From NCBI RefSeq assembly GCF_004799665.1, contig NZ_CP031310.1, positions 612,887-676,886 on the forward strand: a stretch of DNA of 64,000 nucleotides, read 5' to 3'. Shown here piece after piece: positions 21,708 to 55,618 of the stretch. Source of the stretch: Halapricum salinum (GTDB lineage: Archaea; Halobacteriota; Halobacteria; Halobacteriales; Haloarculaceae). Position 1 is the first letter of the stretch; each line of letters begins with the position of its first letter. A program made the position numbers and the translations under genes. The notes beneath the pieces are model-generated. The model was not told where the DNA came from. It searched no databases and saw only the letters and a list, made by a program, of their open reading frames with translations.

Positions 21708-21810
21708 CTAGCACGTTCGTTGGCGGGGGTCGACTTAATCGGCCGGGGTTTCAGGTGCGTCTCTGGAAGATGGTCGCTATGCAACAACGCCGCCGTCATC
21801 AACAACGTCT

Positions 21811-21942
21811 CGAAAGCCCTCTCCACGCTCGCTAGGAGTCGGAGACCATCCCGCCGCTACTTCTTCGAAAGCCCTCACCACGTTCGCTAGGAGTCGGAGA
21901 CCATCCCGCCGCTACTTCTTCGAAAGCCCTCACCACGTTCGC
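21811..21942. repeat. 55-bp tandem direct repeat (2.4 copies)
   Basis: Units start at 21811, 21866 and 21921, each beginning CGAAAGCCCTC. Units 1 and 2 differ at only two of 55 positions (the 12th and 18th bases); the third copy is cut after 22 bases at CACGTTCGC and continues into unrelated GC-rich sequence. The repeat does not code for a convincing peptide. It forms the left edge of island 1. Confidence 0.9.
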
Positions 21943-22141: not shown

Positions 22142-22211
22142 GACGTGCTTCGCCCTTTCATTCCTCCAGGGACTGCACCACAACAGCAGTCTTGTGGCCG
22201 GGAACGAGTGT

Positions 22212-22231
22212 CGCGCGCAGAACTGCGCGCG
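22212..22231. repeat. Hairpin CGCGCGCAG-AA-CTGCGCGCG, shared with island 2
   Basis: Perfect 9-bp arms. Island 2 contains the same palindrome in the opposite orientation (loop TT, extended to 11-bp arms, 54986-55009), showing that the two islands use common modules. Confidence 0.85.
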
Positions 22232-22507
22232 GCCGAGTGACCCGGGGAAGGGCAGGCCTGCTGTGCGGTCGCAGTGCGGTAGTAGCCTGGTGGACTGAAA
22301 GGGCGAGACTCGCCTCGGGCCGGAGTGGAGTCGCTAAGCGGGCTCTATTCGAGTGAACGAAGTGAACGAGAATATCCCGCTTAGCGGCCCCGAGCGAGTC
22401 GAGGGCTTTCCATGCTTGGTAACGCTGCAGTCACCGGTTCCTAGTCAGCGAGTCGGGGGCTTTCCAAACTCGTCGTCTCCACCAGCCGGACACGATTCTA
22501 GTGAGTA

Positions 22508-54311: not shown

Positions 54312-54773
54312 ATGACGACACTCTACGACGTGCCCGCCGACGACCTCATCGAGGCCGTCGCGGACCGACTCGCCGACGACGGCGACGTCGAAGCACCCGA
54401 CTGGATCGAGTTCACCACCACTGGCGTCGGTCGCGAACTCCCGCCCGAGCAGGAGGACTTCTGGGCCACCCGCACCGCTAGCCTCCTCCGAAAGATCGCC
54501 GTCGACGGGCCGGTCGGCGTCGGCGCGCTCGCCACCGAGTACGGCTCCACGAAAGGCGGCTCCAACCGCTATCAGGTCCGCCCCCCGAGCCAGACCGACG
54601 GCTCCCGGAAGATCATCCGCACCGCCCTCCAGCAGCTCGAAGACGCCGACTACCTCCAGACCGAAGGCAACGACGGTCGCGTCGTCACCGCCGACGGCCG
54701 CCAGCTGCTCGACGAGGTCGCCGACGACGTGCTGGAAGAGCTCGACCGACCGGAACTCGAACGCTACGCCTGA
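54312..54773 (+). CDS. rps19e: 30S ribosomal protein S19e
   Basis: 153 aa, an archaeal-eukaryotic small-subunit protein. The family core is visible: TLYDVPADDLIEAVADRL, then DFWATRTASLLRKIAVDGPVG, YGSTKGGSNRYQVRPPSQTDGS and RKIIRTALQQLEDADYLQ, with the usual acidic haloarchaeal adaptation. ATG 54312 fits the TATA box 27 nt upstream. The stop codon TGA is also the first part of the bracket TGAAAGCCCTCG that opens palindromic island 2. Confidence 0.95.
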   Translation: MTTLYDVPADDLIEAVADRLADDGDVEAPDWIEFTTTGVGRELPPEQEDFWATRTASLLRKIAVDGPVGVGALATEYGSTKGGSNRYQVRPPSQTDGSRKIIRTALQQLEDADYLQTEGNDGRVVTADGRQLLDEVADDVLEELDRPELERYA

Positions 54774-54985
54774 AAGCCCTCGCAGCCGACTGGCGTCGGC
54801 TGCTCGCCCTTTTCATGTCCGCCGCGAGAGCTTTGCTCTCGCTAAGGCCCGCCGCGAGACGGCCAGCGGTCGCTGGCCGCTCGTATGGGCAACGCCAGCG
54901 CTTTCCGCAGTCGCGGGCAATTCGCCCGCGACAAACCGTCCGCAACTACACAGCTACCGCCTTATTGAGGCCCCAAACCTCCCCG

Positions 54986-55009
54986 GTCGCGCGCAGTTCT
55001 GCGCGCGAC
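54986..55009. repeat. Hairpin GTCGCGCGCAG-TT-CTGCGCGCGAC, shared with island 1
   Basis: Perfect 11-bp arms with a 2-base loop. Its inner part is the reverse complement of the palindrome at 22212-22231. Confidence 0.85.
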
Positions 55010-55132
55010 ACGCTTCCTGACCGCCGCGCGGTGGCCGTGAGCGCCTTTCATGGCGCGAGCCGGGGAAGGGCAGGCTAGCCGTTCGCGACTTCGCGAGCGG
55101 CTACAGAAAGCGTCGGCGTAACCCACGCGGAT

Positions 55133-55152
55133 GCCGCGCCGATCGGCGCGGC
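55133..55152. repeat. Perfect 20-bp palindrome
   Basis: GCCGCGCCGATCGGCGCGGC reads the same on both strands. It lies in the second half of island 2 between two further hairpins. Confidence 0.85.
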
Positions 55153-55175
55153 TCCCGCAAGGCGGTCCTGGCGGA

Positions 55176-55237
55176 ATACTAAGGGCGAGCGGCGAACGCC
55201 AGTTCGCCGCGAGGGCTTAGTAGTAGTAAGGCTTTCA
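55176..55237. repeat. Compound hairpin and repeat bracket at the right edge of island 2
   Basis: An outer stem TACTAAG (55177-55183)/CTTAGTA (55216-55222) encloses an inner 9-bp stem GCGGCGAAC (55189-55197)/GTTCGCCGC (55202-55210). The right arm runs into AGTAGTAGTAAG, a short trinucleotide run that splits the closing bracket CGAGGGC..TTTCA. Confidence 0.75.
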
Positions 55238-55264
55238 GTGGCGCGGCCAGTACTACCACGTACC

Positions 55265-55618
55265 ATGAGTGGCGAGCCATCAGACGACGAACTGGAGAAG
55301 CTCCGACAGGAGAAAATGGAACAGATGCGCGAACAGGCCGGCGGCGAGGGGCAGCAAGAGGCCCGCAAGGCACAGCAGGAACAGGCCGAGGCCCAGCGCA
55401 AGGCCGTCCTCCGTAAGCACCTCAGCGACGGCGCGCGCAAGCGACTGAACACCGTCAAGATGTCCAAGCCGGACGTCGCCGAGAAGGTCGAACAGCAGGT
55501 CGTCGCGCTGGCCCAGAGCGGCCGCCTCGGCGGCGAGCAGATCGACGAAGACCAGATGCGCGACCTGCTCAAAGAGCTCACGCCCGATTCGAAGAGCTTC
55601 AACATCCGCCACCGGTGA
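55265..55618 (+). CDS. PDCD5-family DNA-binding protein
   Basis: 117 aa, small, helical and charged. The N-terminal half is a Glu/Gln/Arg-rich coiled region ([21 protein letters not shown]), the C-terminal half has the family core [32 protein letters not shown] and [14 protein letters not shown] ending in SFNIRHR. Archaeal members are annotated as DNA-binding proteins; the eukaryotic relative PDCD5 takes part in tubulin folding and p53 control. ATG 55265 begins right after island 2; rps19e-PDCD5 is a common archaeal order, here interrupted by the island. Confidence 0.88.

Follow-up and report, generated by a model that had tools for sequence, protein, structure and literature searches.

The 490 bp that separate rps19e from the pdcd5-family gene in Halapricum represent one copy of a large family of repeated hairpin modules in haloarchaea, a family that appears not to have been described before. 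We analyzed a window of 64 kb taken from the single 3.45-Mb chromosome of this organism (genome G000). The family is dispersed and modular and its copies are intergenic, with stems that remain paired while their sequence changes and with end modules that lie at gene edges. In our preferred reading, held at about even confidence, the island in this spacer (island 2) belongs to a set of dispersed modular palindromic repeats of Halobacteriales spacers that would be mobile or exchangeable, carry no gene of their own, and in some cases act as transcription boundaries.

Structure of island 2

Island 2 spans positions 54771–55222 and runs from the stop codon of rps19e (54312–54773, plus strand; NCBIfam NF006811) to 46 nt before the gene for the pdcd5-family DNA-binding protein (55265–55618, plus strand; NCBIfam NF003268), with its modules in the near-dyad order T-B-C-M1-C'-B'-T'. 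The TGA of rps19e (54771–54773) doubles as the foot of hairpin T, the left end module (54771–54815, core 54774–54811), which has a constant internal mismatch, CCCTC/TCGCC, and the loop TGGC. It is followed by a short inserted hairpin, GCGAGAGC-TTT-GCTCTCGC (54824–54842, from sequence and predicted fold), by the module B hairpin, GACGGCCAGCG-GTCGCTGGCC (54855–54884, from sequence, fold, and related loci), and by module C (54887–54932), in which GGGCAACGCCAGCGCTTTCCGCA is joined to the hairpin GTCGCGGGC-AATTC-GCCCGCGAC. Module M1 (54977–55075), matched in many copies, is a four-way structure whose first hairpin, P2, lies at 54986–55009; its core as defined by covariance model R1 occupies 55028–55075 (chromosome match 667914–667961, 75.1 bits), and the 16-mer CCGGGGAAGGGCAGGC, located by pattern search, is at 55060–55075. 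Beyond M1 lie the inverted modules C' (55076–55124) and B' (ATGCCGCGCCGATCGGCGCGGC, 55127–55158) and the CCTGGCGG box (55167–55174), a companion of T in nearly all copies; all features from T to this box are given on the plus strand. The right end is formed by T', the inverted T, on the minus strand (55177–55222, core 55181–55218), which ends 46 nt before the pdcd5 ATG. The 46-nt segment upstream of pdcd5 outside the T' core (55219–55264, plus strand) is presumably the promoter. T and T' are 84% complementary over 38 nt, and the region is predicted to fold better than its dinucleotide shuffles, by 13 SD on one strand and by 12 SD on the other.

A preliminary description had presented the spacer as a bracketed array of hairpins sharing two blocks with a second island in the window, and much of this stands. 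The brackets are present as TGAAAGCCCTCG from 54771 and a split CGAGGGCTT...GGCTTTCA at about 55210–55238, but that description had missed that the left one starts with the stop codon of rps19e. The exact 16-mer does occur in both islands, at 22242 in island 1 (M1 core 22191–22257, plus strand, the second copy in the window) and at 55060 in island 2. The palindrome CGCGCGCAG is likewise found in both, but as the last M1 hairpin of island 1 and as the first M1 hairpin of island 2; with a loop that is inverted between the two (GAAC versus GTTC), it is no simple homologous copy.

A dispersed modular family at gene edges

The chromosome contains 22 exact copies of the 16-mer against 0.003 expected under a first-order Markov model, and the reversed pattern used as a control has no match in this genome. 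These numbers refute a chance resemblance of the two islands, to which we assign a negligible probability in spite of the high G+C content (65%) that would favor it. A covariance model of the M1 core finds 30 matches in this genome, the highest count among the genomes searched; of 146 haloarchaeal genomes, 34 have at least one match, representing 17 of 56 genera (E ≤ 0.001). Partial matches to the island modules are found across the chromosome and in relatives, and module copies are 76–89% identical. Each of three genomes from genus g25 has 35–48 T-type hairpins, against none for the reversed control; the T stem and loop in that genus are arbitrary, and its constant part consists of the flanking mismatch blocks only. 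Across 392 genomes the T pattern matches 101, but its reversed control also matches roughly 30, so single T matches there are not evidence.

The kit consists of T, B, C, M1, M2, and inverted copies of these. T is a 38-bp hairpin of the form AAGCCCTC-stem-TGGC-stem'-TCGCCCTT, followed by a TCCRCCAGG box, in which the internal mismatch is constant while the stems vary freely yet pair. B and C are hairpins joined by constant linkers. M1 is closed by CCTCCCC/GGGGAAGG, and the 3' strand of this pair is the 16-mer. M2 reads, from gene to spacer, CCACTTTTT...AAAAACNTGG...AAAAA, a hairpin with T-tracts and A-tracts that places T-tracts on both strands beside a GC hairpin. Depending on the locus, M1 is followed by M2 (for example at L034–L036, L042, L045–L048, and L055), by C'-B'-T', or by long type-I T arms, which supports modularity. 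The M1 copies examined are all intergenic and have no fixed orientation to the neighboring genes, and copies differ in the orientation of their hairpin loops, both being seen. What stays constant across families is the 16-mer block, the internal mismatch of T, and its CCRCCAGG box. The proposal of a family of modular intergenic elements is thus borne out by many copies, by their location, and by the different partners of M1.

Several loci carry further elaborations of these modules. At L037 and L043–L046 the M1 hairpins are enlarged by nested palindromes (GAGAGC-AA-GCTCTC, CTGCGTCGCTTCGCTCCGCAG) inside their stems. Tandem repeats of ~60 bp (CGAAAGCCCTCACCACGCTCGCTAGGA...) lie outside the left T arm at 21810–21940 of the window and at type-I loci such as L039 and L041, with an inverted counterpart outside the right arm. 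Direct-tandem T hairpins about 52 bp apart are seen at L069 (positions 1501–1589) and L061 (two T cores), which suggests that T can accumulate or duplicate at one site.

We located the end modules relative to genes predicted by a simple codon-usage caller trained on this window. T starts no more than 9 nt from a same-strand stop codon in 31 of 46 distinct hairpins (within 2 nt in 19), and 12 lie upstream of an opposite-strand gene, nine of them with the start codon 40–46 nt away. Similarly, 18 of 35 M2 modules are within 12 nt of a stop codon and nine lie 38–55 nt before an opposite start. With a generous background of 15%, binomial probabilities are 1e-15 for T and 5e-7 for M2, figures that overstate independence because the loci include orthologues. 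The foot of T includes the stop codon itself, paired with a matching 3' arm (TGAAAG/CTTTTCA, TAAG/CTTAG), and T brings its hairpin, along with a short T-run, right up to this codon. Genus g25 differs in having M2 at the stop codon, with T located further inward; T there has no T-run, and is thus not a uniform terminator. Based on the T-tracts and the position, T and M2 are candidate boundaries or terminators. A T-type island is also found at a gyrB-like stop codon in the Halalkalicoccus group (L019 and L175), lying in L019 directly before a gyrA-like gene.

The same sites in other genomes

In 15 other loci rps19e lies directly before pdcd5 with a module-free spacer of 40–47 nt (six loci) or 82–170 nt (nine loci). 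In two further genera this spacer contains islands with other end modules and the same edges as island 2: in one (G028), M2 lies at the stop codon of rps19e and T' about 46 nt ahead of pdcd5, and in the other (G024) an M2 ends about 43 nt before pdcd5. In four genomes (G001, G002, G003, and G005) pdcd5 lies apart from rps19e, yet T is found 45 nt upstream of it, pointing away. T occurs at the rpl10e stop codon in G000, G003, G005, and G007 and is missing in several relatives. At the G000 rpl10e end (L030, about 965–1040), a second copy of the last codons (ELLIA stop) lies ~60 nt past the stop, at hairpin T, as if an insertion had displaced the old gene end.

A third site lies at the end of the gene encoding aCPSF1, the ribonuclease of archaeal termination (TIGR03675, 971 bits): a T-box-hairpin-M1 unit is found at its stop codon in Natrinema, Natronococcus, Haloterrigena, Halopiger, and Halalkalicoccus. 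In the aCPSF1 3' ends compared (L257, L262, L272, and L327–L332), the T-M1 unit is present in several genera and missing from close relatives. Among 88 genomes with a readable aCPSF1 3' end, regular expressions detect T in 19 and M2 in two; modules are present in six of six genomes of genus g34, in seven of 19 of family f7, and in some of f5 and f6, with no T or M2 detected by this search in f1, f4, f10, f12, or f17. The stem sequence of T differs between some of the six g34 genomes. The modules at aCPSF1 may reflect a regulatory link, or aCPSF1 may simply be one housekeeping gene that has them by chance.

That the same sites are empty in some genomes and filled in others implies that modules were gained or replaced. 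The preliminary description had proposed spread by duplication or transposition; the family is real, and we infer transposition from the module-free rps19e-pdcd5 spacers in other genera and the patchy presence at rpl10e and aCPSF1. A target duplication, which would be expected of a MITE along with termini like those of a resident transposon, was not recognized at rps19e-pdcd5, and no excision or other strain-level event was seen in the data compared. The precise abutment of modules and genes could result from targeted insertion, from adjacent deletions that stop at essential sequence, or from selection favoring a boundary there.

Palindrome upkeep, origin, and related elements

The stems retain their pairing through complementary change. 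P2 has 135 of 140 Watson-Crick pairs and no G-U; pairs 1 and 2 of the T stem are 92% Watson-Crick, with GC, CG, AT, and TA all in use, and T stems contain 14 G-U and 31 A-C. In the M1 hairpin P4 we count 13 two-sided and no one-sided changes, with a covariation score above all 500 shuffles and every slid control. The near absence of G-U pairs, together with the hairpin loops seen in both orientations and the equal folding of the two strands against shuffles, suggests that the palindromes are kept at the DNA level. Conserved unpaired segments such as the 16-mer, on the other hand, suggest specific recognition, possibly as RNA. The modules might accordingly be read as a structured non-coding RNA or a 3'-UTR RNA element made from one strand, with the copies as RNA genes or processing sites, an interpretation that we consider unlikely. 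The strong predicted folds (z of −13), covarying stems, and conserved unpaired blocks are in keeping with it, as are the retention of modules at the aCPSF1 stop codon by several genera, the G-A/G-A mismatches that T' and M1 have at the base of stems on the M1-forward strand, and a mild bias of T-stem wobbles toward the same strand (31 versus 14, p = 0.016). However, G-U pairs make up 10% of the tRNA stems in these loci (only 10 tRNAs, with a program that shows only standard and G-U pairs) and are almost absent here, sense and antisense folds are equal against shuffles, T occurs in both orientations within one island, and the orientation to genes is not fixed. Raw energy had favored the antisense in 10 of 10 comparisons, a preference that disappears against shuffles, and the assignment of a possible RNA to that strand was dropped. 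A known Rfam family was likewise rejected, since neither the window nor 12 copies gave a match at the gathering score.

Under our preferred reading, the units would move or be exchanged as DNA hairpins, by way of some enzyme or through recombination between copies. Flanking non-functional DNA would then be lost until the unit met a stop codon or promoter, and some units may be retained thereafter, their end modules serving as putative two-way transcription boundaries. A search for Y1 transposases (PF01797), the sole mobilizer family covered, found none in G000; a Y1-driven REP or PATE was rejected on this basis. The 11 TnpB loci of this genome lack the module set, and the modules were rejected as TnpB omega-RNA ends. 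A viral or plasmid origin was also rejected: T is missing from viral contigs, where 16-mer matches lie in unrelated sequence, and no plasmid matches the modules. Alternatively, the islands may be neutral mobile or recombinational debris devoid of host function, with palindromes that last through template-switch correction and an edge rule produced only by deletion bias together with selection that removes insertions from other places. Such an origin agrees with the perfect palindromes lacking G-U intermediates, the inverted loops, the nested hairpins, and the patchy presence at the same sites. Against it stand the constancy of the 16-mer, the CCRCCAGG box, and the internal mismatch across families and the retention of T at aCPSF1 in all g34 genomes with a stem that varies between some of them, and tolerance alone does not predict a zero distance. 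We judge it unlikely, though marginally less so than the RNA interpretation.

Comparison with known systems gives partial likenesses. Known archaeal U-tract or aCPSF1-dependent terminators centre on a U-tract; M2 likewise puts T-tracts just past stop codons, but its T-tract is embedded in a complex repeat that is built of modules and has conserved blocks on its flanks. The BOX elements of Streptococcus pneumoniae are mosaics of a few exchangeable subunits with large foldbacks, and the islands share this exchangeable-subunit mosaic by description; we know of no gene-edge rule for BOX elements. REPs have a conserved stem sequence and a Y1 (RAYT) partner. Like the REP/BIME elements of enterobacteria, the islands are intergenic mismatch-bearing hairpins in inverted pairs, but their stems are arbitrary, G000 has no Y1 (RAYT) gene, and they follow a much stricter rule of position. 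In E. coli, about 11% of REPs lie within 15 nt of a stop codon (PMC12306157), and the text of this REP survey contains no match for "halo".

Closer at hand, Haloquadratum walsbyi has MITEs, PATEs, and SMRs, and both PATEs and SMRs resemble the islands in being transposase-free, non-coding, palindromic dispersed haloarchaeal repeats, often nested (PMC3119063). That the islands are themselves PATEs, transposase-free IS200/IS605 derivatives moved by a Y1 transposase, seems very improbable. PATEs are common in Haloquadratum, with near-terminal palindromes of heterogeneous sequence (PMC3119063), and Y1 transposases are present in four of six members of the Halapricum genus; G000, however, combines the lack of Y1 with the most M1 copies, its TnpB loci are without any combination of modules, and PATEs, related to IS605, are defined by absent terminal inverted repeats whereas the islands carry the inverted ends T and T', with no end palindromes shared with IS605-type elements seen at the 11 TnpB loci. 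SMR-A differs in being about 110 bp, homogeneous, and targeted to PATEs, and SMR copies are commonly >95% identical, as opposed to the modular islands at 76–89%. Our literature search found only the Haloquadratum PATE/SMR and general REP work on related repeats, and no description of a PATE or SMR at stop codons or with freely varying stems. We file the islands as a variant, apparently undescribed, of transposase-free palindromic repeats.

More speculatively, and with low confidence, haloarchaea may use standard interchangeable mobile boundary cassettes, with T or M2 ends and exchangeable cores, placed at stop codons and promoter edges where they would insulate genes; the aCPSF1 cassette in several families hints at autoregulation. 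Spacers of this haloarchaeal order share a kit, with end pieces that mark the limits of genes at nearly single-base precision, and it would be a mistake to interpret the hairpins in these spacers as individual RNA genes. If functional, the kit would offer a handle on archaeal gene insulation and termination and on the movement of palindromic DNA without a visible transposase.
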